Of a stretch of DNA of 64,000 nucleotides, positions 2,303-61,931 are shown piece after piece (position 1 is the first letter of the stretch; the number at the start of each line of letters is the position of its first letter). Where the stretch lies: the NCBI GenBank assembly GCA_002726935.1, contig PBTC01000026.1:1-64000 (forward strand). The letters are read 5' to 3'. The notes under the pieces were generated by a model. That model had not been told where the DNA came from and did no database searches. It worked only from the letters and a program-made list of their open reading frames with translations. The position numbers and the translations under genes are program-made. The DNA is from Candidatus Saccharimonadota bacterium (GTDB lineage Bacteria; Patescibacteriota; Saccharimonadia; Saccharimonadales; Saccharimonadaceae).

Positions 2303-2737
2303 ATGATGAAAACTTTGCGCTTTACTGAAGTAAATCGAGCTTTTAAATGGTCCCTGTTTTTGGGTCTTGTGGCCACAATGTTGACCGAACCTGCATTGGC
2401 TCAAGTAGCCAACCAGGGTCTTGGTGGTTTTGTGAACACGTTCAAGAATGACACCCTCAAGCCTTTGCTTGAATTCGGTGTATATGTTGCATATGCCGCC
2501 GGTGTTGGTGTGACGGGCGTTGGCATTAACAAGTTTATCAAGGTGTCTAAGGGCGATCCTCAGACTGGCCCAGGCGAAGCTGCGGCCTATACTTTTGGCG
2601 GCGGTGGTTTGATGGCACTTGGACTGATTGCTGACTACGCAGCAAACTCAATGTCTGTGAACGGTACAAACCCTGCGGCCTGGGGAACTCGATCAGCCGC
2701 GGATGTTCTGCAATCCCTCTTGCCATATATCGGCTAA
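2303..2737 (+). CDS. IcmD/DotP-like (TraR-like) small T4SS membrane protein
   Basis: Preferred ATG 2303/2306 (MMKTLRFTEVNRAFKW...), signal-like N-terminus ending EPALAQ, two TM segments; the listed ORF start at 2174 overlaps the upstream gene. Confidence 0.5.
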   Translation: MMKTLRFTEVNRAFKWSLFLGLVATMLTEPALAQVANQGLGGFVNTFKNDTLKPLLEFGVYVAYAAGVGVTGVGINKFIKVSKGDPQTGPGEAAAYTFGGGGLMALGLIADYAANSMSVNGTNPAAWGTRSAADVLQSLLPYIG

Positions 2738-2738
2738 G

Positions 2739-3437
2739 ATGCAAGAAGTAAACGCCAGTAACGAGCCCGAGCTGTACCCGCTTTCAATAGGGTCAGCTCG
2801 AGGCGTTCCGGCAGCTCAGATTGATGCGCTGTATGGCGCGAGGGTTGTCTCGGGTCCTTTGTTTGATGCGGTGGTTAAGCAGCACAACGGACGCTGCGCG
2901 GGTTGCGGTTTCGAGTCTAAGAAGTTTCTATCTCTTCATCCTAAAGACGATAAGTTGTCAAATAGGAACCCTGAGGAACTTGTTCCTCTTTGCCCTTTTT
3001 GTTTTTCTTCTTGCAATATTTTTTATGCGGGGCGATGTGGTGGTGGGCGTATTGTTCGGCTCCCTGAAGTATCACAAGCCTACCTAAACAGATCGATACG
3101 CGCTCTGATGGTTGCTGCGAGACTTGGTCTTCCTCAAGCTGAGGACGTCGCGTCAAGAGTATTCAAAGCGCTCCAAAAAAGAGCCTATATGGTCGAACAA
3201 GCCTGGGGCTCATCTCTGCCAGAGGACTTCTGCGCAGCTCTTGGCGAAGTTGAAGATGCAACATATTACGACCTCAAAGAGAAGTTATATGAGTTGCGTT
3301 TTATTCCTACGTTGAAAAATCCAATGCTGACCGAGGACTATTTTGGTTTCCTTTGTTCGGATGCCAAGAAATTAGATCCCCACGGAACGGAAAGCGCGAG
3401 TCTAATGTATTCACTCTTAGGGCCCTTGAATGGCTAA
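2739..3437 (+). CDS. DotN/IcmJ-like zinc-finger T4SS protein
   Basis: Start ATG 2739; CAGCGF...CPFCFSSC paired CxxC zinc-finger pattern, directly upstream of dotL-like gene, as in Dot/Icm loci. Confidence 0.6.
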   Translation: MQEVNASNEPELYPLSIGSARGVPAAQIDALYGARVVSGPLFDAVVKQHNGRCAGCGFESKKFLSLHPKDDKLSNRNPEELVPLCPFCFSSCNIFYAGRCGGGRIVRLPEVSQAYLNRSIRALMVAARLGLPQAEDVASRVFKALQKRAYMVEQAWGSSLPEDFCAALGEVEDATYYDLKEKLYELRFIPTLKNPMLTEDYFGFLCSDAKKLDPHGTESASLMYSLLGPLNG

Positions 3438-5910
3438 GAATAGAGGCGTACTTGCGAGAGACGAAATTGACGTCTCCAGAATTCGACGTGACAGCCGGCC
3501 CCCCTATGTCCGCTTTGTGGCATGGACTCAGGAACCCGAGAATGGAATCATCGTTCTCGCCATAACGGCCGGAGTATGCTTTTTTGTACCCGCCCTGGTA
3601 AAACTCGGTTTCGCGATCGCGGCGATATACGCTCTTGTGATGTTCAGCACGAAGCAAGGGATGTTGGTACGCGTTCCCGAAATGGCAGGGGTTAGTGATC
3701 CTACAGAAAAGATACCCAATTCAAGAAAGGTTGATAAGGGCAAGGGCATTATGTACCTCGGCCATGACCGCAGCCCAGAAGGTTCAAAAGAGCAGGTCTG
3801 GCTCTCAAATTCTGACGCACGCACTCACTTTTTTACGTTGGGAACGACGGGCTCGGGTAAAACGCAAGCACTTTTGTCATGGGCCTTTAACTCTTTAAGC
3901 TGGGGTTCAGGCTTCGTTTATATCGACGGAAAAGCTGATAACGAGCTGATTTATCAAGCATATGCGATGTGCAGAAGGCTGGGCCGTGAGGACGACTTCT
4001 TTGTCGTTAACTTCATGACCGGCGATTCAGACGCATTTGAAATCCACAGATCCAACGACAGGGGGAGTAACACAATTAACCCGATGTCGACTGGCTCCTC
4101 AAACTCGCTGACTCAGCTTGTATCTTCATTGATGCCTGAATCAGGCGGGGACAACGCGATGTGGCAGGGCCTGGCGATCGGCATGGTGAACGCCGTGATT
4201 ATTGGGCTTTGCTACAAGCGCTACAGAGACGGTTTTACTATCGATGCTGGCATCTTAAGAGACTATATTGAACTTAGTGCATTGATTGCTCTTACCAAGG
4301 AGTTCGAACGTCGTGAGGACGTCCCAAAAGATCTGGTCTTTAAACCACTAAAGACATATCTCATGAACCTTCCAGGTTTTGATTGGGAAACAAACCTGAT
4401 GCGCACCCAGCCAGTTTCAGAGGACACAAAGAAACAGCATGACTTCCGAAGCATGCAGTTTTTAAGGCAATTGACGATGCTGGCCGATACCTACGGTTCT
4501 GTGTTTAAAGCACAGATCCCCGAAGTGGACATGCTTGACATTGTACTTAAGCGTCGGATCGTCATCGTGTGTATTCCCTCTCTTGAGAAATCCGAGGAGG
4601 AATCACAAGGTGTGGGCAAGCTTGTAGTATCAGCTATTCGTCTTATGATGTCGAAGACGCTAGGATCGAAGGTCGAAGGTGATTACGATGCCGTGGTGAA
4701 ATCAAAGCCCACGAACTCGCCTTCGCCGTTTATTGCGATCTTCGATGAGTTGGGCTACTACTTTACAAAAGGCATGGCCATCATGTTCGCACAGGCCAGG
4801 GGGCTGGGTTTTGCCTTGTTTGCCGCTGGGCAGGATCTCTCTGCCATGATGAAAGGTGCAAACAAGGAGGAAGCCGAATCCGTTGTCGCCAACGCGAAAT
4901 TTAAGATCACTCTCGCAATGGAAGACCCCGAGAGAACGGCTGATCTCATCATTAAAACCGGCGGGGAAGCCATGATCTCTGAGGTGGCTGGCTACGAAGG
5001 AAAGATGGGCGCCGTGGCTTCTGCCACATATCGGGATAACCTGAACGCCACAATCCAGATGCGTAAGCGAGTCACCCTGGAAGAGTTGAGAGACATGGAC
5101 AGTGGTGAGTCTATTATGATGTGGCGCGATCGCATCGTGCGCATGCAAAATTTCTATGTATTCGACGGCCCTGGCAAGATTGGTCGAATGAAGACTCAAC
5201 ATTTAAATCGCTTGTTATGTTGCTTCCCTCCATCGATTCATGAACTCACGGGCTACGTGGTACCAAAGAAAGTGGTCCAAGTAGCGGCTAGCGACAACAT
5301 CTTGAACTTGCTGCTCTCGGATGCAAATCCGATTTTCACAAGCGAGAGCGACGAGATAGGCGATGAGCTTCTGATCGCCCCGTCTCATAGTGTTGACGTG
5401 GGAAGAAATCGGGAAGGTGTTCAAGTCGAACTTGGGCTTTTTTATAAGTTCAGCGAATGGTATGACGGCCAAGACAAAGGCACCAAGTCAAATAGTAAAT
5501 CGAAGATGAGAGGAATCTCGCTTACGCCTGGAGGTCATGAAGAATCTCCTTTAGGGGCACCAAAGCCTGTAATTGGCTCGAACTCTCTGATTATTAACTT
5601 CGACGCCTTATTTACAAAAAACAATGAAGTCGTCTATCCAATTAAGCCTCGAATTGATGAATCAAAACTCGATCTAGCTTATGAGGAAGTTGATGGCATT
5701 CCGACAATCAATGAAGTTGCATGGAAACTCACCATTGACAATGAGGTCGAGGAAAGCCTGCGAGTCATGGACAAAATTCTTGCTGCGGAGTCAAGCTCCA
5801 GCGGCGCTGTTAAACGCATCATGAAATATCGTTCAAACCCATCAGGGCTGTCTAGAAACCCCGAGGACCCAAATTTGGCTGTCCAGGGATCGTCCGGGTT
5901 TGCATCTTAA
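3430..5910 (+). CDS. DotL/IcmO (TrbC-type) type IV coupling protein ATPase
   Basis: N-terminal TM pair, Walker A TLGTTGSGKTQALLSW, Walker B-like FIAIFDELGYYF, ~830 aa; overlaps upstream gene by 8 bp. Confidence 0.85.
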   Translation: MAKNRGVLARDEIDVSRIRRDSRPPYVRFVAWTQEPENGIIVLAITAGVCFFVPALVKLGFAIAAIYALVMFSTKQGMLVRVPEMAGVSDPTEKIPNSRKVDKGKGIMYLGHDRSPEGSKEQVWLSNSDARTHFFTLGTTGSGKTQALLSWAFNSLSWGSGFVYIDGKADNELIYQAYAMCRRLGREDDFFVVNFMTGDSDAFEIHRSNDRGSNTINPMSTGSSNSLTQLVSSLMPESGGDNAMWQGLAIGMVNAVIIGLCYKRYRDGFTIDAGILRDYIELSALIALTKEFERREDVPKDLVFKPLKTYLMNLPGFDWETNLMRTQPVSEDTKKQHDFRSMQFLRQLTMLADTYGSVFKAQIPEVDMLDIVLKRRIVIVCIPSLEKSEEESQGVGKLVVSAIRLMMSKTLGSKVEGDYDAVVKSKPTNSPSPFIAIFDELGYYFTKGMAIMFAQARGLGFALFAAGQDLSAMMKGANKEEAESVVANAKFKITLAMEDPERTADLIIKTGGEAMISEVAGYEGKMGAVASATYRDNLNATIQMRKRVTLEELRDMDSGESIMMWRDRIVRMQNFYVFDGPGKIGRMKTQHLNRLLCCFPPSIHELTGYVVPKKVVQVAASDNILNLLLSDANPIFTSESDEIGDELLIAPSHSVDVGRNREGVQVELGLFYKFSEWYDGQDKGTKSNSKSKMRGISLTPGGHEESPLGAPKPVIGSNSLIINFDALFTKNNEVVYPIKPRIDESKLDLAYEEVDGIPTINEVAWKLTIDNEVEESLRVMDKILAAESSSSGAVKRIMKYRSNPSGLSRNPEDPNLAVQGSSGFAS

Positions 5911-5919
5911 GGAGGGATT

Positions 5920-6486
5920 ATGCTCGACCGTAGAGACTTTTTAAAAATTTGCCTGGCGGCCACCGCTGCACCTACATTGATTCTGCCTGAAGAAGCTAAT
6001 GCTTTTGTATCTGACGAGGGATTGAAGCCGTGGCTTTACATGAAGGAAATGCCCCTATTCATCAAAAGAGGAAAGGATGCTTTCAAGATAGATCTTCGCC
6101 GCAAAGGTCATTTTGATACCTTTCGCTACGCTACCCGAGACATCAAGGCAAATGTAATCGGCTATCCAGATCCGCATCTCGGTGGTCTGATTTCCTGGAT
6201 GCAAGCAACAATTGCAGCGCGCACCGGAAAGTTCCATCCGTTTGTAATTACAAGTGGGCTCCGTACGCAAGCTACCAACAGTCGTATTGAGGGAGCCGCC
6301 AGAAACTCCATGCATCTACCTGATGAGAACGGATTCTTTCGCGCTGTCGATATCCACTCACCGGCCGTACCCCCCAAGGAAATTGCCGCGCTAGCAAAGC
6401 TTGCTCAAGAGGGTGGCGTTGGAATTTACAGCAGTAGAGGTTTTATCCACGTAGATACTGGTCGGGTAAGGACGTGGGGAAAATAA
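5920..6486 (+). CDS. DUF882/YcbK-like M15-type murein peptidase with Tat-like leader
   Basis: RRDFLK N-terminus; ITSGLRTQATN...NSMHL...RAVDIHSP...GIYSSRGFIHVDTG zinc-peptidase motifs. Confidence 0.75.
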   Translation: MLDRRDFLKICLAATAAPTLILPEEANAFVSDEGLKPWLYMKEMPLFIKRGKDAFKIDLRRKGHFDTFRYATRDIKANVIGYPDPHLGGLISWMQATIAARTGKFHPFVITSGLRTQATNSRIEGAARNSMHLPDENGFFRAVDIHSPAVPPKEIAALAKLAQEGGVGIYSSRGFIHVDTGRVRTWGK

Positions 6487-6519
6487 AGACAATTCGTTAA
6501 AAATTGAGATATTGCATTT

Positions 6520-6556
6520 CGGGCGTATTAATGGTATAAAGTCATTAATACGCCCG
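6520..6556 (+). terminator. 14-bp perfect inverted repeat (cgggcgtattaatg / cattaatacgcccg) followed by CTTTTT
   Basis: Arms 6520-6533 and 6543-6556, 9-nt loop, T tract immediately after; sits after the T4SS operon. Confidence 0.65.
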
Positions 6557-6643
6557 ATGCTTTTTGGGACATCAAATTGTTGGACGGCGTAAAACTACTC
6601 AAATATTCTGAATGTCAATCGCATTTAAAAGTCAGTCACTCAA

Positions 6644-8155
6644 ATGAAAGATATGAGAGCCGTCTCTACCGCAGATAGAACCGAAGCAGCCATCGAACTG
6701 ATTCGTTCCACTGTGCCCGACGCGAATGAACTGCTTCTAGTAGACATGGAGCGTGTGAGGTTCTGGATCCAAGAGATTCTAAGGACCGATCCCGAGCGAC
6801 TGGATTGGCATATCAAGCGTCTTCAGGGGATTGGGGCATCAGAAGTCGGCACGCTGGTCAGAGAGCTTGTTCACCAAGAGAGAGGCGGGATGCCTGGCGT
6901 AACGGCAGGCTCCATTATTCTTCAGAAACTCCTTTTGGCTCCATTGAAGCGCCCAACATTTGCGATGCGCTCTGGCACGCTGCACGAGGCGGATGCTAAA
7001 GCATTGTTGATTGAACAGGCCGCAAGAAATGGTGGCGTGGTTGACCATGAGGCGACAAGACTACTTCGCTTGTGGAGCCTAAACCGTTCTGTTCGAGAGA
7101 AAGTCGGGAAGGGCCTGGAGTTACTTGTGGGCGAAGACGACTTAATTCTAAAGTTCGGCGATAAAAGAATTCTGTACGACATCAAGGTTGACGCAAACCG
7201 CAATGGTGGCCCGGTCGCTGAAGAGTACATTTACCAACTACATTCATTGGCGTTGATTTGCGAAGAGGGGCTGGGTTTACCTATTCACGGTAAGCGCATT
7301 AGTCGGTATGGGCCTGACGACGAGGGATATCCAAGCATTGAGAATCTCATTGTTCACCGAGAGGAGTATCGCTTCGGAGAAATCCGTGAGGCAGCCAGAA
7401 TTGCATGGGAATACAGGGCCAAGGGTACGGCGCCGATGCTGCCTCCAAAGAAGTATGTGCGTCTGGAAAACGCGGAAGAAATCAAAACCATTGCCGAGTA
7501 CAGCAACGAATATTTCTCTTGGATGCAGCTTTATAAGTTAGCGGAAGAAAAGAAAGAAGAGACAAAGAAGTCTCTTGTGTTTATGGCGAATCAGGTTTCC
7601 CTTGATCACGACATGTCAGAAAAGATCACCGGATCACAAGGTACGTTGAGGGTCGGTTTGTTGAACATCGGTTTCTCAACCGAGGCCAACCTTCAAGAGA
7701 TCGCTGAGAACCTTCTGGCGGAAAAAGCTATCGATTCATTGGACAAGCTAAGAAAGCCGGTAGGAAGCGTTAATGAGGACAAGTTGGTTAGGCTCCTGCA
7801 AGAGGTTGCGGATCAGCGCGCTATCCCACTTGTGGATTTGATCGCCGAGCTTCGAGATACCGACTGGAGTCAAGACGAGATCCTTACCTTGGCAAAACAG
7901 CACTACGGTGAGAACCCGATTCCCGGCCTTTACCAGAGCTACCGCCTGACCGAAACAAGGACAAAAGATACAGGCTTAGAGGATTGCAAGATGCTTGCCA
8001 GAACAGGCCTTGAGCAGGTCGCTCAGCAAGTACGAGCGCAGGCAGAGATCAGCTTCGAATCGAGTATTTCGAAACCAGCAAAGGTCTCTGCTAACGAACA
8101 AGCAAAACGTGAGGCAAAGAAGGCTGAAAAGTCTCCCTTTGATCTCAAATTTTGA
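6644..8155 (+). CDS. YqaJ-like (lambda-exonuclease fold) DNA exonuclease
   Basis: GIGASEVGTLV, MRSGTLHEADAK, KRILYDIKVD...EYIYQLHSLALICEEG match the G-S-D/E, GxxxE, D-x-K and Q motifs of YqaJ/Exo nucleases. Confidence 0.7.
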   Translation: MKDMRAVSTADRTEAAIELIRSTVPDANELLLVDMERVRFWIQEILRTDPERLDWHIKRLQGIGASEVGTLVRELVHQERGGMPGVTAGSIILQKLLLAPLKRPTFAMRSGTLHEADAKALLIEQAARNGGVVDHEATRLLRLWSLNRSVREKVGKGLELLVGEDDLILKFGDKRILYDIKVDANRNGGPVAEEYIYQLHSLALICEEGLGLPIHGKRISRYGPDDEGYPSIENLIVHREEYRFGEIREAARIAWEYRAKGTAPMLPPKKYVRLENAEEIKTIAEYSNEYFSWMQLYKLAEEKKEETKKSLVFMANQVSLDHDMSEKITGSQGTLRVGLLNIGFSTEANLQEIAENLLAEKAIDSLDKLRKPVGSVNEDKLVRLLQEVADQRAIPLVDLIAELRDTDWSQDEILTLAKQHYGENPIPGLYQSYRLTETRTKDTGLEDCKMLARTGLEQVAQQVRAQAEISFESSISKPAKVSANEQAKREAKKAEKSPFDLKF

Positions 8156-8225
8156 ATTCAGAACAGGGCGGGGCGCCTTGTGTAGTTAAAAGCCCAAATC
8201 ATACAAAAACCACTCCCACTCAAAA

Positions 8226-9758
8226 ATGGAGAAAATTATGTCTTTCATCAACAACCTGAAAAACTCAAAAAACACACGCTCTGGCGCCCGTACTACATCT
8301 CGCACGAAAGTGATTTATGTGGAAGAGTACCCAGATAATCAAACGGTTTCTGGTATCGAAATGACCCTCGACAGCACTGGCCTGGTTCCTGTACGCGATG
8401 CTGCAGGTGAGGCGGTTCGTCACGCCATTCGCCTCAACGATAAAGACTACGAGAATCGCCCGCGAATCTCCTCCCTTGTCGCTAAAGAGGGCGATTGGAA
8501 CGCGTATGTCGAAAGGATGGTAAACGAGTTCCAAAAGTACCAGGAGACAGGTCAATGCACCCTTGTCGGCACGGTGCTGGATGACTTGGTTGCTGCAAAC
8601 GAAGGGGTTATGACCCTCGAAGGTGCGTTACGCAAGAACTGCCGTATCGTTGAACCTGGCGGCTTGCTGCAGTTTGACGGCTGTGAGGAAAAAGAGGGCT
8701 TTTTGGAAGCCAACTGGGTTCGAACACTTAGCCCGACGTGGGGTGAGCGTATCGTAATCCCACCAGGTATGGCGATGATCGCTATTCAGCCTGTGACCGT
8801 TACCGTTGAGAAAACCGGTGGAGAAAAAGTTCGCCTGATCGGAGAGGCTGCAGCCGCCGAACTAAACAAGATGACCACAAAGGAGGCCATTGAGAAGGCC
8901 CGTATTCCAGTGGACTTCTTGCTCCCAGCCTTTGCGAAAGTTACACGTAGTAATGTTCCTCAAATCATCGAGGAGCAATTTACGTTCCTGTGTAATGCGA
9001 TGCAGGTGGACCGCAATGCATCAGTGTATATCCGAGTCATGCAAGGCAAAGAGCCCATCATGGTATTCAAGACAGGCCTGGGTGGGGAGGTGACAGGAAC
9101 GCGCTTAGTAGATGGTGAAGAAGTCGATCATTACGAAGTGCGCTCCCCTGAGTCCGCAGTTGCGCGCCATTTGGAGAACACTCGAGTGTTGGGCGACGAC
9201 CAGGAAGTGACCTACGCTGATATTTATGAAAGCCTCGCTATGGAAGATGGGGTTTCTGTTGAGGTCATCCCTGCTATTAGCACCACCTATGGCAAGATGA
9301 TGAAAATGAAGATCCTGAAGGATGTCAAGTCGGGCTGCGGCGATGTGCTACTGGCAGAGGCTACCGGCGAGTTCGTGGTCGATCGAGATGAAAACGGTAA
9401 GGCCCGCACTTACAAGGTTGACACAATTGACGGCCCCGTGGAAAAAGAAGCAAAGCGCTTCGTGTCATGCTTTACCTCCTGCATTACAGCATCTCTTTCA
9501 CTCGATCCTGACAAGACATACCCTTCTGTCGTTCGTTTCAAAGGCCATTTGCCTAAGAACAACGAGAACTACAAGGCTTATCCACTCTTGAATGATGAGT
9601 CATTGCCTAGCTCGTACACGCCATTGGAAATTAAACGCCCCGCGTCCATGGCTGCTGCTTTGAGCAATTCAAAGGACTCAAGCGCTCCTGAATCGGTTGC
9701 AGGCCTGGACGATATTCCGGATCTGAAACCACCTCGTAACGTCAGCATGAACATGTAA
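8226..9758 (+). CDS. Unassigned 510-aa protein encoded next to the YqaJ-like nuclease
   Basis: Long ORF with good codon structure; no motif recognised. ATG 8226 or 8238. Confidence 0.6.
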   Translation: MEKIMSFINNLKNSKNTRSGARTTSRTKVIYVEEYPDNQTVSGIEMTLDSTGLVPVRDAAGEAVRHAIRLNDKDYENRPRISSLVAKEGDWNAYVERMVNEFQKYQETGQCTLVGTVLDDLVAANEGVMTLEGALRKNCRIVEPGGLLQFDGCEEKEGFLEANWVRTLSPTWGERIVIPPGMAMIAIQPVTVTVEKTGGEKVRLIGEAAAAELNKMTTKEAIEKARIPVDFLLPAFAKVTRSNVPQIIEEQFTFLCNAMQVDRNASVYIRVMQGKEPIMVFKTGLGGEVTGTRLVDGEEVDHYEVRSPESAVARHLENTRVLGDDQEVTYADIYESLAMEDGVSVEVIPAISTTYGKMMKMKILKDVKSGCGDVLLAEATGEFVVDRDENGKARTYKVDTIDGPVEKEAKRFVSCFTSCITASLSLDPDKTYPSVVRFKGHLPKNNENYKAYPLLNDESLPSSYTPLEIKRPASMAAALSNSKDSSAPESVAGLDDIPDLKPPRNVSMNM

Positions 9759-9777
9759 TTCATGCGTTCTTGAAACG

Positions 9778-9812
9778 ACGCTCGTTAGGCACTGCTTAAC
9801 GAGCGTTTTTTC
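9778..9812 (+). terminator. Rho-independent terminator
   Basis: acgctcgtta ... taacgagcgt followed by TTTTTTCTTT. Confidence 0.8.
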
Positions 9813-9877
9813 TTTATGGTGTATTGAGATGAATAAACTATAATTTTTCTATTGGACCAACAGACTGCGGAAATATA

Positions 9878-12800
9878 ATGGAAAAAAAGAAGTGGCTGGA
9901 TTTTTCTGCTTATGGAGCAGAAGCCGTAATTCTGAGAACACTGGATCACCGTTCTTTTTACATTCTGAATGGCTTTGACCCGGAAAGCTCAGAAGCCAAA
10001 AGTATTCTGCAGTTGAAAAACCAAGCTGGATCCCCGTATTTTACCCTCAAGGGTGCAGGTGGTTACCTCGTCACGTCGGCATCATTTGTTCCTCTAAGGC
10101 AACTCAAAGAGATTCTTCCAAAGGCCGTTGTTAATGACAACGTCCCTCGCAGTATTTCCAACAGTCCAGAGATTGACTCCGACCAAAAATTGTTTGACAC
10201 ACTGGCCAAGTCAGCAACCATAGTCGCAGAGAACCATTATGGGGATATCGTCTACAGGACTCCCTTTGTTCGGGCCATCAAACGCACGGACAAAGATGGC
10301 AATGAGACCTACATTTATGAAGATCAAGTGGAGGAGCCTGCTGCTTTTTTCAGAGTTCGCTTTGGAACAGAGAATCAATCTACTGATCTTGAGACTTGCG
10401 CATCTTCGGTACTAAGGGCCGCAGCATCGGGCAAAAAGCTAAGATCAAACGATCTGGTTAATGTTTTATCTGCAATCTATGACTCGGAATTTACGGTCCA
10501 ATCTCTTCAGGTTGACAAAAGAGCCATCGACTTTGTCGAAAGAATAGATCAGCAGCTTAGGAAAAGAGTAATTGAGCAACCGGCCTCCGAAAAATCTCTT
10601 CTTAGGGATGCGGACGATTTCGAGTTCCTGCCGGAGTCATTTGTCGATCGTGGGTTTTCGACAGGGAGAAAGAAGTCAGAGCTTCCAGGGCCGGTGCTGG
10701 CGGCTATTCGATTGGCTGTTCCGCCCGCAAAGGATTTGGGGGCAGCGTTCATCGCTCAGGACACAAAATCGTTCCCCTTCCTTACCAGGGATTATCCAGT
10801 TTCATCGTTTTGCTCGCCTTTACAAGCGGACTTGGACTTCGTTAAGTCCATTAACCCAAAGACTGCAGCAGCCAAAACTGTAGGCTTCGGCGCAGAGTTT
10901 ACGCAAGCACCCGATCTCATTTTCATCGAGGGAAACCCGCAAAAAAGTGCTGCGCCTTTCGAGTATGAAGACCTTCAGACAAACCGAAGAGATTTCGCGT
11001 TGGCTTACAAGGGTTTGCGTGATAGAGAGGCCGAAGGTCTGGGCCTATTTGTGCTGTCAAGCTTGGAGGATTCTCCTGGCCACCGCCAAATGATCAATCG
11101 AGCTGACAGGAACGCGACCACCACCGAATTCCTGAATTTCATTGGTCAGCGCTATGAGATCCTCAGCTATGGCAAGTTACACCACGCCTTGATTGAAAAA
11201 CGAGGCCCAGTATTTTCTTTGGCTATTGTGGCCATCGGAAGGAAGAGGGATGCGCTGTATCGAGACTTCTCCCTTGATACCGATGTGAAGGCTTACAGTC
11301 GTGACTTCTTGCGCTCTTGGGATCAGGTCAACCAGTGGGCATCCACAACTAGATCGGTAATTTCAAACGCAAAAGTACTTGAGAACCTGCGAGCGCTTCG
11401 TGCACCATCTCTTCCTGTCCCAACTCCGCAGGCCGAGGCAAAACCAAGGAAGGCTAAGAAGGCTCCCAAGTCCGAGCCAACACTGGCTATCCCGGATGCC
11501 GAGCAGGTTGATCTGTTTGCTCAGCCGATTGAATCTGCAGAAGTTGTGCTCAACCAAGAAGCCACCGAATCCAACGCTTCTTTGTCACAGGTTGAAGAGT
11601 CTGCAGACCCAATTGACACCCCCGCTGTAGGCGCAGATGTTGTAGAGGGTGAAGGGCAGCAGGCCCCTGTGGGCATCAACAATGAAGATTCTGAAGCCAC
11701 GGCGATCGAAGATGATGCCGAAGTAGTTATCGACGTTTTTGCCAAGCAAAGAGCCCGAATCGCCAAGGACATCGAAGAATTTTCTTTTGATGAATTGCTT
11801 GCAGATTTTCAGCTTGATGGATTTTATGACAGTTACATCAAGCAATTCTCGTTCGACTCTATATATGACTCCGTCAACGAGGAGGATGAGGCGATTCTCG
11901 ATCGGGGAAGGAAAGTTGACCGTGATGAAAATCGATTCCAATCTCCTACAAAGACTCTGAGTCTGATTCGCGAGCCTTCATCCATGACGCCTCGCAACCT
12001 GGTTGCGCCGACCAGTTACGCGATGGACAATTTGCGCCGAAAAGTCAAAGATGTGGATCGTTTCGTTTCCGCAAAGTTGAGAATGACGATCTCGGAGATG
12101 ACCGAGGTGTTTTCTTCTGAGCAAGTAGACGCCGTAGCCCTGTCGATCGTTAGAGCGGAGTCCGGAAAGGGGTTCATTTGTACTGATCAAACAGGTCTAG
12201 GCAAAGGCCGTATCATCGCTGCCTATGCGCGCTATGCGCATTTCCAGGGCAAGCCCTTCATGTTTATTACTGAGGGAAGTCACCTCTTTTCTGATTTCTT
12301 CAGAGACCTTAGGGACATCAAAAGCGATCACTTGTTCAAGAACATAATGATTCTTAACACAGACACAAGAGCTGATATTTGTGATGATGTAACTGGCGAG
12401 GTCATTTTCAAGAGAAACGCCGCCACTTTTGGTAAGGTGCTTTCTCGTATGGACGAAAACACAGCAAGCCTTGCAGACAATAAAATTGATATGTGCTTTG
12501 CAACTTATTCGCAGTTTAGGAGCAAGGACTCTGTAAAAACTCGCTGGCTTAAGGAGCAGGCGTGCCGAGGCTCCTTCTTGGCTTTGGACGAATCTCATAA
12601 TGCAGCGGGAGGCTCATCGAACACAGGTGAGGCGGTTTCTCATGCTGTGGCGATGGCCGACAGCGTAATCCATTCTTCTGCGACCTGGGCGAAGAATGCC
12701 AACACCATGTCTTCTTACAGCACTGTCTTTCCGATTGGCATGGACATTGAGCAGGTGCGCGACATTCTAATGACCGGCGGTGAGCAGATGGCTGAGATCA

Positions 12801-15586
12801 TGTCCTCCATGCTTGCCCAAGACGGGGCTTTAGTTAGGCGAGAGCATGACCTCTCCCGCCTGACTTTCCGCACTGTTGTTGATGAAAAGAACTTGGATCG
12901 TAACGTGCAGTTAGCCGACAGGTTTGCCGAGATATTGCTGGAAATCAACAAGGTGTCTGGCACTCTAGGAAAACTGGCAGCAAAAGTTGATGAGCGTTAC
13001 ATCCGAGAGCACCTGGAACTACCCGAGCATCTACGCTTGAATAATCACATGGGCGGCGTGGAGAGTACTGGCTTTGGCAGCACAATGTACAACCTTCAGC
13101 GCATGTTTGCCCTGTGCCTGAAAGCAGACTTTGTTGCCGACCGTGCAATTGAGGCGCTTCGTAATGGACAAAAGCCGGTCATAGTGCTTGAGCAAACACA
13201 GGAATCCATGCTCAAGCAATCTTTGAAAGCATATCTATCGGCCTTGGGTGAGGGCAATATTCCTCATGAGTATTTGTACGACGACATCCTCCTTGATGAG
13301 GAAGGAAACGAGATCGAGAATCAAGCCGACGAGGGGAAGATCGACCTGAAGGTGGGAGTTCGTATACCCATGGTAACGATGCGAAATGCCTTGATGGCTG
13401 CCTTTAAAAGAACGATGAGCGCAAATCGCAAACTGCCTGACGGAACAAAGCGTCGTCTCTCGATCCTTGACCTGGCCCTAGAGGATCCGAAAACAACTGC
13501 GGCTGATATTCAGGTTATTGAGTCATGGATTGAGAAAGTCGAAGCGTTAATTTCGGACTTTCCAGATTTGCCACTGGTACCGATTGACTACGTTAGAGCA
13601 AAGATTGAAAGAGCTGGCTTTAGGTTCGGTGAAGTCTCGGGACGTAAGTACCAATGTGACTTTGAGCTATTCGACGGGAAGGAGCCGAATCTTTTTGTTA
13701 AAAATCGTAAAGACACTCGAAAAGAAGATGTACGCAATTTCAACAAAGGAGTGGTTGATGCCTTACTGATTAATATCGCGGGGGCATCCGGGATATCTGT
13801 GCACAGCAATGCCAAGTTTGCCAACACTGACCAGCGAGTCATGATTGAGTGGCAGATCGCTAACGATGTGAACAAGCGAGTGCAGCTTTTTGGTCGTGTT
13901 AACCGTGTGGGGCAGGTAGTCGATCCTATTATTGAGACGGTTACTACCGGTCTTCCGTTTGAAATGCGACTGATTTCCATGCAGAAGCAAAAACTTCGTG
14001 AGCTTAGCGCAAATACTCAGGCGAACCGAAGGAACGCGGTTGAAGAGGATCAGACTCTGGATCTTATCAATAAGATCGGCAACGAGTCCGCAAAAGAATA
14101 CTTGATGAATAATCCAGACATCGCCGATCTACTTTGTATCGACATGATGGAAATGGAAAAGAAGCTGGACAACACTGCTTACATCAATAAACTTTCCTTC
14201 CTGATCGGACTGCTCTATGTTGAAGAGCAAATTCAGGTGATTAGCGAACTCGAGAATGACTTCAAGAAACGAGTGCGTGATAAGGAGGCCCAAGGCGAAA
14301 GCCCTCTGCGAGTTAAGGAGCATGAGTGGGGTGCGCGCGTGGTCAAGCAGTCGTTGTTTTATGGGATCGAGGAGGAGACCTATGAGTCCTCGTTTGATCG
14401 CCCAGTCTATCAAACACTCTTGTCATACGATGAGATCGTGAACCCGCTGCAGTGGGCTTCCGTTTCGAAGACCATCGAGGAGAGCCGTGAGGCTTTCGCT
14501 AATTATTTTGGTGATGAGGAGGCGCGCGAAACTCGTCTGTATGACTTACGGAACAGGATGTCGGAGTCATTCCAGATCCTGATGCGCCGAAATGTTGGAT
14601 CTCGATTCTTTGAGGAAGGTGCTGATCACAACAGCATTATTGATCAAGACGCTGCTATTCAAAAGGCTCTTAATTCCCAAGATATTTTTAACACTTTTAT
14701 CAAGGGTTACAACGACAGGAAGATCTTTGCAGAGTCGATTATTCCCCACTTATTTCCAGGCAACATTGTCGAGGTCCAGTACGGACTGGACAACTACAGA
14801 GCTGTGATCACCGAGCTTACGTTGCCGGGGCGTGGCAGGGAGGCTTCTCTTACAGAGTATGACATTACCCTGGCCATACCTGGCAATAGGTATCTGACTA
14901 GGCTCAACCTTACCGGTTTGTATTCCTACGGTGGGACTATCGAGAAAGTTGACGAACTCGACGTGAGTGCACCGAATCGATCCGCTGAGTCTGTTTTTAA
15001 CTCAGCTAAGAAAGGTAAGATCACCAGGGACCGTGTTGTTCTTACCGGAAACCTATTCGCTGCGATTAACGAGACCAGTGGCAGATCCTTGGGAAGTCCG
15101 GGTATGTACACAGATGAAAACAATGTTCGTCACTCCGGGATCATCTTGCGAAAAGAAGTCAAGGCAGCAGACCTTAATTCGATTCCAATTAAAGTGGACA
15201 TAGCCCACGTGAAGGCGATCTTGCAAGAGCACCAATTTGCCTCGATTGAGTTCTCTCCAGCGGATGCAAAAAATCTTCCTTTTAGCGTAATGACACGGCC
15301 AGGGAGAGAAGGGCTTCGTTTGGATGTCACATTCAAAAGCTCCAAGCGGGCTGCCGGCTGGGAGAATCAGTTGGACCTTATGGAACTGCTTCGATCTGAT
15401 GGGAAGAACTTTTCGAGATTTCAGGGGATTGCAAGCAAGACATTGAGTTTTAATTTTATTGATGGTATAATTGAGAAAATGGCGGCGAGAAATTGCTCCA
15501 TATCAATTGTAGGCGGGGACCGCGAATTGATCTTCCGTCAAATTCAAGAACTTAAAACTCAAGGGAGATTCCCTAGAGTCGCTTAA
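9878..15586 (+). CDS. Strawberry-notch-like (Sbno) SF2 helicase, 1902 aa, with uncharacterised N-terminal half
   Basis: SGKGFICTDQTGLGKGRIIAAYARYA (Sbno-type Walker A), FLALDESHNAAG (DESH box), HSSATWAKNA, C-terminal helicase motif LFGRVNRVGQV. Confidence 0.75.
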   Translation: MEKKKWLDFSAYGAEAVILRTLDHRSFYILNGFDPESSEAKSILQLKNQAGSPYFTLKGAGGYLVTSASFVPLRQLKEILPKAVVNDNVPRSISNSPEIDSDQKLFDTLAKSATIVAENHYGDIVYRTPFVRAIKRTDKDGNETYIYEDQVEEPAAFFRVRFGTENQSTDLETCASSVLRAAASGKKLRSNDLVNVLSAIYDSEFTVQSLQVDKRAIDFVERIDQQLRKRVIEQPASEKSLLRDADDFEFLPESFVDRGFSTGRKKSELPGPVLAAIRLAVPPAKDLGAAFIAQDTKSFPFLTRDYPVSSFCSPLQADLDFVKSINPKTAAAKTVGFGAEFTQAPDLIFIEGNPQKSAAPFEYEDLQTNRRDFALAYKGLRDREAEGLGLFVLSSLEDSPGHRQMINRADRNATTTEFLNFIGQRYEILSYGKLHHALIEKRGPVFSLAIVAIGRKRDALYRDFSLDTDVKAYSRDFLRSWDQVNQWASTTRSVISNAKVLENLRALRAPSLPVPTPQAEAKPRKAKKAPKSEPTLAIPDAEQVDLFAQPIESAEVVLNQEATESNASLSQVEESADPIDTPAVGADVVEGEGQQAPVGINNEDSEATAIEDDAEVVIDVFAKQRARIAKDIEEFSFDELLADFQLDGFYDSYIKQFSFDSIYDSVNEEDEAILDRGRKVDRDENRFQSPTKTLSLIREPSSMTPRNLVAPTSYAMDNLRRKVKDVDRFVSAKLRMTISEMTEVFSSEQVDAVALSIVRAESGKGFICTDQTGLGKGRIIAAYARYAHFQGKPFMFITEGSHLFSDFFRDLRDIKSDHLFKNIMILNTDTRADICDDVTGEVIFKRNAATFGKVLSRMDENTASLADNKIDMCFATYSQFRSKDSVKTRWLKEQACRGSFLALDESHNAAGGSSNTGEAVSHAVAMADSVIHSSATWAKNANTMSSYSTVFPIGMDIEQVRDILMTGGEQMAEIMSSMLAQDGALVRREHDLSRLTFRTVVDEKNLDRNVQLADRFAEILLEINKVSGTLGKLAAKVDERYIREHLELPEHLRLNNHMGGVESTGFGSTMYNLQRMFALCLKADFVADRAIEALRNGQKPVIVLEQTQESMLKQSLKAYLSALGEGNIPHEYLYDDILLDEEGNEIENQADEGKIDLKVGVRIPMVTMRNALMAAFKRTMSANRKLPDGTKRRLSILDLALEDPKTTAADIQVIESWIEKVEALISDFPDLPLVPIDYVRAKIERAGFRFGEVSGRKYQCDFELFDGKEPNLFVKNRKDTRKEDVRNFNKGVVDALLINIAGASGISVHSNAKFANTDQRVMIEWQIANDVNKRVQLFGRVNRVGQVVDPIIETVTTGLPFEMRLISMQKQKLRELSANTQANRRNAVEEDQTLDLINKIGNESAKEYLMNNPDIADLLCIDMMEMEKKLDNTAYINKLSFLIGLLYVEEQIQVISELENDFKKRVRDKEAQGESPLRVKEHEWGARVVKQSLFYGIEEETYESSFDRPVYQTLLSYDEIVNPLQWASVSKTIEESREAFANYFGDEEARETRLYDLRNRMSESFQILMRRNVGSRFFEEGADHNSIIDQDAAIQKALNSQDIFNTFIKGYNDRKIFAESIIPHLFPGNIVEVQYGLDNYRAVITELTLPGRGREASLTEYDITLAIPGNRYLTRLNLTGLYSYGGTIEKVDELDVSAPNRSAESVFNSAKKGKITRDRVVLTGNLFAAINETSGRSLGSPGMYTDENNVRHSGIILRKEVKAADLNSIPIKVDIAHVKAILQEHQFASIEFSPADAKNLPFSVMTRPGREGLRLDVTFKSSKRAAGWENQLDLMELLRSDGKNFSRFQGIASKTLSFNFIDGIIEKMAARNCSISIVGGDRELIFRQIQELKTQGRFPRVA

Positions 15587-15596
15587 AGGGATCCGA

Positions 15597-17810
15597 ATGA
15601 CACCTGCCGCCTCACACCAACCCACTAAAGCCGTGGCAGGCGTCATTGGAGAGCACTCGGCGTCAGAGTTAAAGCCTGCGCCATTGGCCCTCAAAAACAC
15701 TGAGCGTGATCAGTCTCGCCGGAGCACAAAAACCCCCAAATGGATGTTTGGGGTTGAGTGCGATGGCATTCGGGTCGGAATCAAGTGCAAGAAGGCAGAG
15801 AACACCAAAGACCTTGTCAGAAAGTTCAATGGCTGGTGGTGCCAAGGTGCTATGTCCTGGATGTTCGAGCTTGATGATGCATCCCGCTTCGCCTCATACC
15901 TATCCGCAAACCCCAAGGCTGTAAAGACAAATTTAAATACTGAGAATGCTGCTGGATTTATCTACTGGGGTAAAACGCAGAACAGAAAATTAGGCTGCTT
16001 TTCGTCAATGATTGACGTGCGACTTTTCAACGTCAAGAACGAGGCGACGGTCATTATCGTTGGTGGCTATGATGGTGTCTTAAAGAGGATCCTACCCAGG
16101 GTTGCCGGGGCAAACTGGAACTCTCAGTTTGAGGTCTACATTGCCAAAGGCAAGAGCACTAAAGAGATCCTGGATGTCCTTTCCCAAGATGCGTACATTC
16201 ACCGAGATGAAGTGTATGTAAACACTAACGTATTTAACGAGCTGGACATTGGCGCATGGCGCGACGTACCTAAGGCTCGGCTAACTATTGGTGCCGAGTG
16301 TGCCTTAGACCCCTCTGAGTTTTTTAACCCTGAGGAAGAAGATGATCCTAAAAATCTTAAACCTAAGGTGGACGCACTTAAAGCCTTGGCGGCCAAGCCC
16401 TTGGTCAAGCGTGAGATCAACCCAGAGATCTATCCGTGGGCCGAGAAAAAATTTGGACTCCGGGATTATCAAACTACTGGGGTCAAACACCTGCTTGAAT
16501 ACTCCTCAGCCCTTTTGGCGGACGATATGGGGCTCGGCAAAACCAGGCAAAGTGTCGTAGCGGCTCGTATTAACAGGAAGACCGGCGTCAACATAGTCAT
16601 TGTCCCCGCATATCTGAGGATCAATTGGTACCGCGAGATAAAGATTGTCGAACCTGAAGCTAGGATTTGGTGTGTTAACGTCGAGCGCATTAACAACATG
16701 CCACATGTGACCTCCGGTTTTGTCGCTGGTAGTGTCCAGCCTGGCTGGATTGTGGCTTCTTATGAATCGATTGGTACAGTGTTTGAGCACATGCGTGCCA
16801 ATGAAATGAAAGTTGATAGCATCATCTTCGATGAGGCTCACTACATTAAAGAGCCGAGCAGCCAGAGGACGCAAAAAGCCTTCCGGTTGTCCGACATGGC
16901 TGAGCATAAAATCCTGCTGACAGGAACCCCAATCCTCAACGGGATTGAGGAGCTTTACACATTGCTGCGGCTATCGGGACACCCCCTCGCGGCAATGGAC
17001 GTTCGAATTTTCAAGAAAACCTTTGGCAATTCAGAGATTGACCGACGCGCACTCAATCAGAGAATTAAAGAATGGATGCTTCGAAGGAGTAAGAAAGGAA
17101 CCCTTAACCTTAAAGGCAAGGTACGTAATGAATACCTTATCGAGGGGTCTTTTAAGTTCTGGAAGGAATATAGAGCGCTTGAAGAAGACACCTCCATGCC
17201 CACCCTCGTTAAGATTGGAAAGGCCCGCGCGCTGCTGGACCACGAGAAGATGCTGGCAGCATTCGATTTTATCTCGTCCTTTGAGGGCGACGAAAAGTCC
17301 ATCTTGTTCGTTAATTTCAAAAAGACTTTCAATCAGGCTATGCAGCGCGCCAAAATGCTTGGCATTGATGCGGTTGGGTTCGACGGAAGCTGCTCGCCAG
17401 AATACAGACAGCAAGCCGTAGATATCTTCCAAGAAAATCCGAATGTCAAACTCATCATTATTACAATTGATGCGGGCTATAGTGGTTGGACGTTAACGGC
17501 CGCAAACTGGGTCTTTATGGCGTCTCTTCCCTGGACGCCGAGCAAACTCATGCAGGCGGAGGACAGGGCTTATCGCCTTGGACAGGAGCGCTTGGTGAAT
17601 GTTGGCATTCTCAAGGTCGTCGACACCATTGATATTTCGCTGTGGGAAGTTCTTGAATATAAAGCCAAGCAAGCCGCAGAGGTTTTAGAATCCGACGATC
17701 CGCTGGGAAATCAGGAAAAAGAAAAGAAGCAGGCCTTGAGCATAATCGCCGCCCATGGTTTCACCCCTAGAATTAAAGTCGAAAAGACCATTGAGCACGC
17801 TACAGCTTGA
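15597..17810 (+). CDS. SNF2-family helicase (SMARCAL1-like)
   Basis: LLADDMGLGKTRQSV, IIFDEAHYIKEPSSQRT, LLTGTPILNG, C-terminal AEDRAYRLGQ. Confidence 0.85.
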   Translation: MTPAASHQPTKAVAGVIGEHSASELKPAPLALKNTERDQSRRSTKTPKWMFGVECDGIRVGIKCKKAENTKDLVRKFNGWWCQGAMSWMFELDDASRFASYLSANPKAVKTNLNTENAAGFIYWGKTQNRKLGCFSSMIDVRLFNVKNEATVIIVGGYDGVLKRILPRVAGANWNSQFEVYIAKGKSTKEILDVLSQDAYIHRDEVYVNTNVFNELDIGAWRDVPKARLTIGAECALDPSEFFNPEEEDDPKNLKPKVDALKALAAKPLVKREINPEIYPWAEKKFGLRDYQTTGVKHLLEYSSALLADDMGLGKTRQSVVAARINRKTGVNIVIVPAYLRINWYREIKIVEPEARIWCVNVERINNMPHVTSGFVAGSVQPGWIVASYESIGTVFEHMRANEMKVDSIIFDEAHYIKEPSSQRTQKAFRLSDMAEHKILLTGTPILNGIEELYTLLRLSGHPLAAMDVRIFKKTFGNSEIDRRALNQRIKEWMLRRSKKGTLNLKGKVRNEYLIEGSFKFWKEYRALEEDTSMPTLVKIGKARALLDHEKMLAAFDFISSFEGDEKSILFVNFKKTFNQAMQRAKMLGIDAVGFDGSCSPEYRQQAVDIFQENPNVKLIIITIDAGYSGWTLTAANWVFMASLPWTPSKLMQAEDRAYRLGQERLVNVGILKVVDTIDISLWEVLEYKAKQAAEVLESDDPLGNQEKEKKQALSIIAAHGFTPRIKVEKTIEHATA

Positions 17811-17964: not shown

Positions 17965-18708
17965 ATGAAAAAACTCTTTCGTTTAGCCGTAGCCACAAGC
18001 CTGATTTGGGCGCATGCGCAAGCAAACTCGGCTGTCCTTATCGTAGAAGGCGATGATCTTGAGAGGAACAGACGTCTTTCTGGGGAGCTTGCTCAGTACG
18101 ATGGGGCCGGTAGCAGCATCGGCGTGGCGCCAGAGCAAAGTCAACTCACAGATCTAACAGGAAATGTTAATCGCCTGTTCATCACTGAGCCATTCCAGGC
18201 CCGAGTGATATCTGGGATGGCTAGGGAAGTAACCTTGGACGAGGCCATGCAGATGGTTGTCCCCTCCGACTATCAAGTGGTTTATCGGGTATCAAAAGAA
18301 TCTCAGAAGCTTCCTGTCTCTTGGCGTGGCGGCGTGGAGTGGCCTCAAGTTGTAAAAGAGGTCATGAACCAAGCGAGAGGTTACGCCTTTATTGATCCAT
18401 CATCAAAGAAGGTCATTATCAGCGCCTCTGCATCAAATGACACCTGGGAAGTCAGCACCAAGGACAAGACGCTTCGCGTTAGTCTTACCCGCTGGGTCGC
18501 TCTCGCCGGATGGCAATTGGTCTGGGATATTGATCGAGACTTCAACGTCGACGCCTCGGCAACAATCAACGGCTCATTTAAGGATGCCGTTACTGATCTG
18601 GTCACCTCGTTGAGCAGCAGTGATTATCCTGTTCGCGCCGTATTCTATGAAAAATCGAAGACCTTGCGGATCGTAAAGTACACCGCCGGCTTCCGCAACC
18701 AGCAATAA
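17965..18708 (+). CDS. TcpQ/PilL C-terminal-domain pilus protein
   Basis: Signal peptide, C-terminal TcpQ-like domain (LRVSLTRWVALAGWQLVWDI...), first gene of pilus operon. Confidence 0.65.
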   Translation: MKKLFRLAVATSLIWAHAQANSAVLIVEGDDLERNRRLSGELAQYDGAGSSIGVAPEQSQLTDLTGNVNRLFITEPFQARVISGMAREVTLDEAMQMVVPSDYQVVYRVSKESQKLPVSWRGGVEWPQVVKEVMNQARGYAFIDPSSKKVIISASASNDTWEVSTKDKTLRVSLTRWVALAGWQLVWDIDRDFNVDASATINGSFKDAVTDLVTSLSSSDYPVRAVFYEKSKTLRIVKYTAGFRNQQ

Positions 18709-18719
18709 GGACTACACCC

Positions 18720-20366
18720 ATGAAGCATAAAGCAAACATTCTTGGGCTGGCTGTGTCCATGGCGGTCCTCTCCGGATGTGCCGCAGTTCAAACGGCTCAA
18801 ATTCAAAATGCAGCCGAGAACAAATCTGAGCAACGTCGTGCCGTTATGAAAGAAGCGCTTGTGAAAAACTACACGGGCGAGGCAAAAGAGTCGGCTCTCG
18901 TGGTGTCTCGCGATAGCATTTATGTGGCCTCGAAATCATCGACTACGCGCTCGGATGCGAACGTGCCTGCAGTATTCGATCAGATTTTTTTGCGTTTTCC
19001 TGGGCGTTACACCTTGGCGGCGTTGGCTGAGCGTATCACCAAGGAGACCCGCATCCCAGTCACCATTTCTGAGGACCTGGCGGCTGGTGGCGGCAGCACC
19101 GCGCCAATCAATATTGCGGTGAACAATGCTCGTGCTGAAATGGGATTTGGCGGCCGCGATCCATTTGCCATGGGCGAAGAAACAAAAGGCTCAATTGATG
19201 TTTATCGAAACACGCCAAATTCATTGTATGCCGAAGAGTTTGAATTGGACTTTAACGGTTCGCTGACCGATATGCTTGATTTGATTGCTGCGAAGGGGCG
19301 AATTAGCTGGGAATATCGTCGCGGGACCATTCATTTCTCCAAGACAATTACGCGCACATTCTTTGTCAATTCACTGCCTGGCACGACCGGCACCACTCGG
19401 AGCATGAGGGCGTCAGTCGGCGGTTCAGGCGGTCAGGGTAGCGCTCCTGCTGGCAGCGGATCCATCAGTACTTCAATCGAGTTTGATCCCCTAGTAAGCG
19501 TATCGGAGGCTATTGCGACGCTGATGACGCCGTCTGGAAAGCTGGCAACCAATAAGTCGTCAGGGACCATCGTGGTGACTGACATCAAGGAGGCTCTGGA
19601 CCGGATCGAGCGAGTGGTCGATCAAGAAAACTCGCTGCTTAACCGGCAGGTGCGTATTCGGGTTGACTTCCTAAGTGTTCGGTATTCAAATAACGCTCAA
19701 GCGGGTGTGGATCTTAACCTGGCCTTCGCCAACATTCTGAACAACGGCGACGTAGCTGGAGTTAACGTTACTCCGGGCGGTGGCTTGGTCGGCGGTGATG
19801 CGGGCTCTGCTACCTTTAGGGTTACCGGCCTTGATTACGATGCGAGCCTGCTTGTCCGTGCGCTTAGCACTCTTGGGAAGACCACCATTTTAGGCAGAAA
19901 GGCAGTGACTACGCTTAACCGCCAGTCCGCGCCTATCGTGGTATCAAACCAGACTATATACCTCGCGTCTACAACACCAGGAGCTGCGGGCGCGAACGGT
20001 GGTGCCGGAGCCCCCGGGCTGCAGCCTGGGACTGTTAATACGGGCTTGTCAATGGACGTGCTGCCGATCATTACGCCTGACAATAGTCTGATTATTCAGT
20101 TTGCTCTCGATATCTCAGAGCTTATCCGAATTGGCTCCATCTCGACTGGTGCTGGTGAGACGCTCCAGCAGATTCAAACCCCTGAGGTGTCCGCCATGTC
20201 TTTTCTTGAGCGTGTGAGCATGAAGAACGGCGAGACCTTGGTAATGGTGGGCTACGAGCGCGATCTTACGCGAAGTAACGGTCGAGACTCCCTGCTCGGA
20301 GTCTCTAGCGACGGCTCCGAAGAACGGGAAGCTTTCCTTATCTCTTTGACTCCTTATTTGGATTAA
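18720..20366 (+). CDS. pilN: PilN-type secretin lipoprotein
   Basis: Lipobox VLSGCAAV; secretin C-terminal domain (VRIRVDFLSVRYSNNAQAGVDL... VSMKNGETLVMVGYE). Confidence 0.85.
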   Translation: MKHKANILGLAVSMAVLSGCAAVQTAQIQNAAENKSEQRRAVMKEALVKNYTGEAKESALVVSRDSIYVASKSSTTRSDANVPAVFDQIFLRFPGRYTLAALAERITKETRIPVTISEDLAAGGGSTAPINIAVNNARAEMGFGGRDPFAMGEETKGSIDVYRNTPNSLYAEEFELDFNGSLTDMLDLIAAKGRISWEYRRGTIHFSKTITRTFFVNSLPGTTGTTRSMRASVGGSGGQGSAPAGSGSISTSIEFDPLVSVSEAIATLMTPSGKLATNKSSGTIVVTDIKEALDRIERVVDQENSLLNRQVRIRVDFLSVRYSNNAQAGVDLNLAFANILNNGDVAGVNVTPGGGLVGGDAGSATFRVTGLDYDASLLVRALSTLGKTTILGRKAVTTLNRQSAPIVVSNQTIYLASTTPGAAGANGGAGAPGLQPGTVNTGLSMDVLPIITPDNSLIIQFALDISELIRIGSISTGAGETLQQIQTPEVSAMSFLERVSMKNGETLVMVGYERDLTRSNGRDSLLGVSSDGSEEREAFLISLTPYLD

Positions 20367-39099: not shown

Positions 39100-39118
39100 G
39101 TAGTAGGGGTTTTATAAA

Positions 39119-44494: not shown

Positions 44495-44776
44495 ATGAGC
44501 AAGATCACAGGATTGGACAAAATGCAACGCGAACTGAAAATGGCACAAGAGGCACTTGCTGAGCTGGGAGGCGAATTAGGAAGTGTCTCGATGGATCCTT
44601 TTGACCCTGCAAGCATCGATCAAGCAATCAGTGCGATGGAAAGGATTATTGATGCCAAAGTCGCAACCTATGAGAACAATGAATTCATCAACTCGCTTGC
44701 TCAAGACATGAAAGAAAATTATCGTTCAATGATCCTTGAGAGCGCTGCTGAAGCCCGATTGAAGGGTGATGAATGA
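44495..44776 (+). CDS. Small alpha-helical protein, putative partner of the TIR-like protein
   Basis: 93 aa, overlaps the next gene by 4 bp (ATGA). Confidence 0.55.
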   Translation: MSKITGLDKMQRELKMAQEALAELGGELGSVSMDPFDPASIDQAISAMERIIDAKVATYENNEFINSLAQDMKENYRSMILESAAEARLKGDE

Positions 44777-51925: not shown

Positions 51926-51939
51926 GGGGAGTAAGCCCG

Positions 51940-59952: not shown

Positions 59953-60100
59953 TTGTCGTCCCTTACCTGTCGGCATATAGATTTCTAACAAGTATAGGGT
60001 AAGGAAAAATAATATAAAAAGGTAGGAATTTCTTTAATTTCTCCTCTTTTTTTTAAACCGTCTGATAACCTTAAATCATAGGGATTCGCGGCATTTTTGC

Positions 60101-61930: not shown

Positions 61931-61931
61931 T

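Follow-up and report, generated by a model that had tools for sequence, protein, structure and literature searches.

Four genes on one strand of the window, i.e., a 64,000-nucleotide stretch of contig PBTC01000026.1 assigned to a Candidatus Saccharimonadota bacterium (assembly GCA_002726935.1), encode a YqaJ-like exonuclease (503 aa), a partner protein (510 aa), a giant protein (1902 aa) and a SNF2 helicase (737 aa). The giant carries a predicted degenerate N6-adenine methyltransferase domain ahead of a Strawberry-notch (Sbno) helicase of superfamily 2 (SF2) that has kept its motifs. In our estimate the chances are about even that this block is a DNA-protection or establishment module of a type-IVB (MPF_I) conjugative element, with a dead methylase and an intact Sbno translocase. 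An earlier note, made from the sequence alone, had placed the four open reading frames (ORFs) at 6644-17810, exactly where we find them, and had set them between conjugation and pilus genes. This setting holds: a coupling protein and an M15 peptidase are encoded upstream, TcpQ, a secretin, PilO, T2SSE and T2SSF are encoded downstream, and the block sits, on one strand, among type-IVB (MPF_I) transfer genes and type-IV pilus genes.

The giant protein has lost its methylase motifs and kept its helicase motifs

Pfam searches of the giant detected only the Sbno helicase (PF13872, aa 745-1000; PF13871, aa 1280-1413), in line with the earlier call. Its helicase motifs are intact (DQTGLGKGR, DESHN and GRVNRxGQ), and the corresponding columns (DQTGxGKGR, DExH and GRVNRxxQ) are invariant across an alignment of six giants. 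The N-termini of the other aligned giants form a complete N6-adenine methyltransferase with QQYSTP, LEPTxGNGxL and NPPFG motifs. Two methylase motifs present in nearly all other relatives compared are lost in the window and in its closest relative, locus L024 from a Burkholderiales pond metagenome-assembled genome (MAG). At motif I, the LEPTxGNGxL of intact relatives is replaced by IAQDTKSFPFL in the window and FVSNSPSLTAL in L024; at motif IV, NPPFGG is replaced by GNPQKSA and EPELTAF, respectively.

Although the earlier note had left the first ~700 aa of the giant unassigned, the first ~500 of these residues are assignable as a degenerate N6-adenine methyltransferase domain, as judged from sequence profiles and predicted structure. 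Profile-profile comparison matched the N-terminus of the window and L024 proteins with 14 intact homologues over window aa 2-494 (99.6%, E = 7e-25), and the methyltransferase core alone matched the intact profile with E = 1.3e-12. The top Foldseek matches of an AlphaFold model of aa 1-580 (mean confidence, pLDDT, 77) were DNA adenine methylases, with E values down to 1e-7; matches included 2f8l (annotated as a class I methyltransferase), the StySJI M protein 2okc and, lower, TaqI. This model was built with the relatives as its alignment and is therefore supporting rather than independent evidence. Helices are modelled before the methyltransferase core (aa 167-249), where DarB-type proteins have a helical LPD36 domain with a GXG(G/A/S) motif; no Pfam match was found there. 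The earlier statement that no methylase is present was right as regards activity, given the lost motifs, but it missed the degenerate domain as well as a D12-class methylase elsewhere on the contig. The latter lies in a low-GC accessory region outside the block and could possibly supply methylation in trans.

One might suppose that the methylase domain, perhaps even the whole giant, is merely decaying. The methyltransferase region is indeed the less conserved part, with 27-35% identity per 100 aa between the window and L024 giants at aa 201-500 vs. 51-79% over most of the helicase. Against decay, all 1902 codons are open in two sequences that are only 47% identical, the methyltransferase fold is still modelled, and the helicase motifs are invariant; we regard this explanation as hardly credible.

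The block is conserved and its methylase loss is derived

When genomes were scanned with the six-member Sbno alignment, the only close relative to emerge was L024, whose match spans aa 1-1899. All eight genes of the block and its flanks recur in L024 in unchanged order, at nearly the same lengths and with all frames full-length. Identities within the block were 40% (YqaJ), 32% (510-aa protein), 47% (Sbno giant) and 54% (SNF2), compared with 65% (coupling protein), 69% (M15 peptidase), 57% (TcpQ) and 74% (secretin) in the flanks. Evolution is thus faster in the block than in its flanks, yet the block stays intact. The ORF lengths, together with this full-length syntenic copy, exclude chance.

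Relatives of the Sbno giant were found by tblastn in at least 286 plasmid records. Acinetobacter, Pseudomonas and Xanthomonas contributed many of these, and many of the plasmids are of the MPF_I type. In the regions read, the giants measure ~1,740-2,130 aa (L002-L005, L020, L022 and L023). A maximum-likelihood tree built from the helicase region groups the window and L024 as a fully supported pair inside a 22-row proteobacterial clade. Since this pair is nested among relatives in which the methylase is mostly intact, loss of the methylase is derived. Elsewhere in the same clade, L032 has lost the methylase domain and has kept the helicase together with ~96 aa at the N-terminus; this is a second, independent loss, although the L032 branch is long and its placement less sure. 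A possible third loss, in Aeromonas (L021), was not counted because the gene is split. Searches for further members of the dead-methylase lineage found none in viral contigs, none among 60 relatives of the host bin and, apart from the L024 genome itself, none in 399 genomes drawn from the order of that genome. Bacteroidota-type Sbno giants (L039, L040, L045 and L052) have a RadC/JAB-like domain (assigned by eye) before the methylase and have no 510-aa partner.

The 510-aa protein belongs to a putative partner family

Of the 22 rows of the proteobacterial clade, 19 have a gene of 368-515 aa immediately upstream of the giant (exceptions: L021, L028 and L031); this count rests on relatives chosen by Sbno similarity. 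We gathered the partner groups first by position and then linked them by sequence with hhalign. The Cupriavidus group profile matched those of the Xanthomonas, Acinetobacter and Neptuniibacter groups at 94-97% and that of the Stutzerimonas group at 64%. Its match to the window group (probability 69%, E = 4.5e-5) is suggestive of family membership, and the link is strengthened by gene position. The Gallionella proteins of L028 and L031 (525-537 aa), first taken as partners, are related to UvrD-helicase proteins and were removed.

The 510-aa protein was described as unassigned in the earlier note and stays so, with no family match in Pfam, PHROG, NCBIfam or the PDB and no relative detected in plasmids by tblastn. 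Its AlphaFold model is mediocre (pLDDT 64) and matched nothing significantly in a viral fold library. Most of its top 50 Foldseek matches were Cas7f/Csy3 proteins, the best with E = 2.7e-3, probability 0.44 and a TM score below 0.2 from a weak model. This identity was not adopted, as it gained no backing from profiles: eight Csy3 sequences (annotated database proteins) compared with all partner groups by hhalign gave probabilities below 1%, equal to the decoy. An acidic tail like that of single-stranded DNA-binding proteins was also considered; the tail is more acidic than the body in 15 of 18 homologues, not usefully so in the window and L024, and was left unused as evidence.

The nuclease and the SNF2 helicase suggest other possible roles

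The call of a YqaJ-like exonuclease was upheld, albeit indirectly. The window protein had no direct Pfam match at E = 1; it matched the RecE-like phrog_434 (E = 0.009) and shares 25.9% identity (6e-16) with the plasmid protein of L006, and the assignment rests on this homologue, which is itself above the Pfam cut-off for YqaJ. The PD-(D/E)xK residues (GTxxE, GxPD, DxK and Q) align in five YqaJ homologues, so that the nuclease is predicted to be active. The gene order YqaJ-partner-giant recurs in L006, L007 and L008, where the giants combine a methyltransferase with a SNF2 helicase, and in L032 and L048, with Sbno giants, as well as in the window and L024.

These features bear on the main rival to the protection reading, i.e., that the block serves recombination or repair. 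YqaJ would resect double-strand ends, the 510-aa protein would anneal or bind single-stranded DNA, and the SF2 motors would remodel intermediates, thereby aiding re-circularisation, repair or gene exchange; Exo/Bet of SXT and IncA/C elements provide the comparison. The predicted-active RecE/YqaJ nuclease adjoins the partner in several elements, a UvrD helicase occupies the same slot in others, and the modelled partner opens with strands and helices in an order that would suit an oligonucleotide-binding (OB) fold. However, the partner had no profile match to single-strand annealing proteins (RecT/Redbeta/Erf/Rad52) in PHROGs or Pfam and no significant fold match to them, many giants with a partner are without a YqaJ gene in the neighbouring stretch, and the methylase ancestry of the giant points toward modification and restriction biology. 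On balance we consider a recombination role unlikely, albeit a serious contender.

The SNF2 gene, as called earlier, encodes PF00176 and PF00271 domains. It adjoins the Sbno gene in the window and L024 only; homologues were found on pND6-2 and Xanthomonas MPF_I plasmids, and the gene lies ~9-10 kb downstream in pND6-2 and pXCV183. The resemblance of this protein to the DrmD, ZorD and DpdE models, together with the closeness of the homologues' methyltransferase domains to Mad2 of MADS in PADLOC, would fit a resident anti-phage defence system (like DISARM, BREX or MADS) carried as cargo. The earlier lead to SNF2-type DISARM subunits did not survive scoring: the protein shares the SNF2 ATPase core of DISARM DrmD, Zorya ZorD and DpdE, but falls far below every curated cut-off (DrmD, 77 bits vs. 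950; ZorD, 81 vs. 1500; DpdE, 39 vs. 500). Neither the Sbno giant, the partner nor YqaJ matched PADLOC models, and no DrmA, DrmB, DrmC or methylase partners of DISARM, nor any other DISARM, BREX or MADS component, were detected in the block. Moreover, its position is fixed inside transfer genes, and a dead methylase would leave the host's own DNA unprotected. Defence cargo is thus very improbable.

The block may protect plasmid DNA during establishment

In the protection reading, the giant, its partner, the SNF2 translocase and the YqaJ nuclease would be made together with the transfer genes. The methylase would be retained as a folded domain despite loss of its S-adenosylmethionine-binding and catalytic motifs, and the giant, with its three companions, would load onto plasmid DNA. 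ATP-driven translocation along this DNA, or shielding of it, during transfer and establishment would then block host restriction complexes without self-methylation of the plasmid. The contrast between a degraded methylase half and an intact motor half suggests that the essential function lies with the motor and not with methylation. More tentatively, and at somewhat less than even chances, we propose that a stable plasmid lineage has turned a DarB-type methylase-helicase into a methylation-independent machine for DNA protection or DNA loading. The dead methylase would act as a DNA- or partner-binding platform, the 510-aa proteins would form a new partner family, and repeated loss of the methyltransferase with the helicase kept would mark the motor as essential to the class.

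Several observations weigh against a protective role. The YqaJ exonuclease, absent from the P1 Dar system, fits recombination better, and the dead-methylase lineage has two members found, i.e., the window and L024. No oriT or relaxase was found among the genes scanned. We found no functional data for the window giant or any plasmid homologue. Lastly, plasmid DarB clones alleviated EcoKI restriction without needing the protein (PMC11109961), leaving DarB's own mechanism unproven.

The question has wider bearing, since models of DarB-type protection of invading DNA differ between methylation and physical occlusion, and a variant that is conserved in nature and has no working methylase tells the two apart. 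With Sbno giants on so many plasmid records, their role would bear on the spread of such plasmids, and the uncharacterised but conserved 510-aa family goes with methylase-helicase giants.

Gene setting and origin of the contig

Coordinates of the block and its surroundings are listed below.

Table 1. Features of the four-gene block and its setting in the window.
Feature	Position	Strand	Basis or remark
YqaJ/RecE-like PD-(D/E)xK exonuclease, 503 aa	6644..8155	+	phrog_434, homologue L006, aligned active-site residues, L024 copy; predicted active
510-aa partner protein ("mid")	8226..9758	+	Divergent putative family directly upstream of methyltransferase-helicase giants
DarB-like giant, 1902 aa	9878..15586	+	Predicted degenerate N6-adenine methyltransferase and Sbno SF2 helicase
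Predicted degenerate methyltransferase core of giant, ~aa 253-508	10634..11401	+	Alignments and profile comparison
Sbno helicase core of giant, aa 745-1413	12110..14116	+	Pfam, invariant alignment columns
SNF2 helicase, 737 aa	15597..17810	+	PF00176 3e-26, PF00271 7e-16; motifs intact
Left flank: coupling protein and M15 peptidase	3430..6486	+	Kept in L024
Right flank: TcpQ and secretin	17965..20366	+	Kept in L024
TraG/TrwB-type (TraG/DotL-type) coupling protein	3430-5910		Upstream of block
M15 peptidase	5920-6486		Upstream of block
IcmG/DotF-like gene	488-1585		NCBIfam, score under curated cut-off
IcmJ/DotN-like gene	2703-3437		NCBIfam, score under curated cut-off
D12-class N6-adenine DNA methyltransferase	42307-43656	+	PF02086 1.2e-16; outside block, unlinked

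The block follows immediately after the coupling-protein and M15 genes, inside the transfer and pilus run of both the window and L024. This location would suit a donor transfer-processing module, with motors and nuclease making DNA ready, or clearing it, for the DotL-type coupling protein. This adjacency is not general: in pYR7 and Xanthomonas pF, the partner-giant pair adjoins replication genes, and it lies elsewhere again in other plasmids. Furthermore, to our knowledge, the best-known transfer systems manage without giants of this sort. We judge a role in transfer processing improbable.

The contig itself (72,979 bp, i.e., the window and stretch L010) differs in tetranucleotide composition from other sampled contigs (r = 0.56-0.69, vs. 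0.88-0.90 within the window) and carries an outer-membrane secretin and flagellar genes. Most likely it comes from a proteobacterial conjugative element and was misbinned into a MAG of the candidate phyla radiation (CPR), so that none of the findings should be ascribed to CPR bacteria. The bin (1.34 Mb) and its relatives (mostly 0.5-1.1 Mb) probably belong to a CPR/Saccharimonadia-type lineage, as judged from gene content and small genome size. The flagellar genes encode the FlgE hook protein (window 58618-59991, minus strand) and, in L010, a FliE-like ORF recognised by eye (5281-5592), FliN (6468-7043) and FliM (7030-8031, minus strand); such genes would be unusual on a conjugative element, and may instead point to an integrated element or a chimeric assembly. 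A type IA topoisomerase is encoded in two parts (window 61857-63275 and L010 1130-2386, i.e., contig 65130-66386), with ~1.85 kb and two small ORFs between them; no Rfam intron was found.

Other accessory genes were also observed. A CAP12/Pycsar TIR NAD-hydrolase-like protein (44773-45678; PF10137, 1.5e-38) adjoins the D12 methylase in the low-GC region. A Tn7/Tn5053-like transposon (48817-54102) comprises collinear transposase-like, TniB and TniQ genes and is followed by a HipA-type kinase (54803-56131). The window additionally encodes two adjacent ribonucleotide reductase small subunits (38023-40435) and, beside the pilus genes, a 2-oxoglutarate-Fe(II) oxygenase fused to DUF6817 (30920-32368).

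Comparison with known systems

The nearest described class is a group of polyvalent proteins known as the DNA methylase-helicase dyad, whose archetype is P1 DarB and which includes a few Sbno examples (Iyer et al., 2017; PMC5512222). In common with this class, the window giant places an EcoKI/TaqI-like adenine methyltransferase domain N-terminal to an SF2 helicase of the SWI2/SNF2 clade within one mobile-element giant; in contrast, its helicase is of the Sbno rather than the SNF2 type and its methyltransferase motifs are lost. DarB is packaged in the virion, whereas the window giant is encoded among type IV secretion system genes, and the P1 Dar system is without the YqaJ nuclease and 510-aa protein of the window block. 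The earlier pointer to DarB was nevertheless right in kind. The DarB methylase domain (LEPSAGTG and NVPFGG) matches the intact plasmid family with E = 1.1e-7, and DarB aligns over 1,176 columns (E = 3.7e-23) with the YqaJ-linked Stutzerimonas giant, which has an NVPFG-type motif IV and is encoded near a DotD/TraH-type gene. By these comparisons, the window giant is derived from the DarB-type kind and would work like it, without being a canonical member, as one defining feature, the methylase motifs, is missing. P1 Dar proteins protect DNA in cis, with physical shielding as one published hypothesis (PMC12707154); the DarB mechanism has been called undefined, with a warning on plasmid artefacts (PMC11109961); and darB and orphan methylases are listed among anti-defence genes of plasmid leading regions (PMC11541004).

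Two sets of plasmid giants are also close. The Sbno giants of pND6-2, pXCV183 and Cupriavidus and Acinetobacter plasmids share ~35% helicase-region identity in the closest cases and likewise have the partner directly upstream, but their LEPTxGNG and NPPFG motifs are intact, most lack YqaJ in the adjacent stretch, and SNF2, where found, is ~9-10 kb away. Stutzerimonas, P. mendocina and Neptuniibacter plasmids resemble the window in their order of YqaJ, unknown protein and giant, near Dot/Icm genes, but their giants are larger (2,400-3,900 aa) and join the methyltransferase to a SNF2 helicase rather than to Sbno. The suggestion that the system is undescribed is too strong: methylase-helicase giants, including Sbno forms, are already in the literature (PMC5512222), whereas the conserved 510-aa partner, the linkage to YqaJ and the dead-methylase lineage appear to be undescribed in the literature searched.

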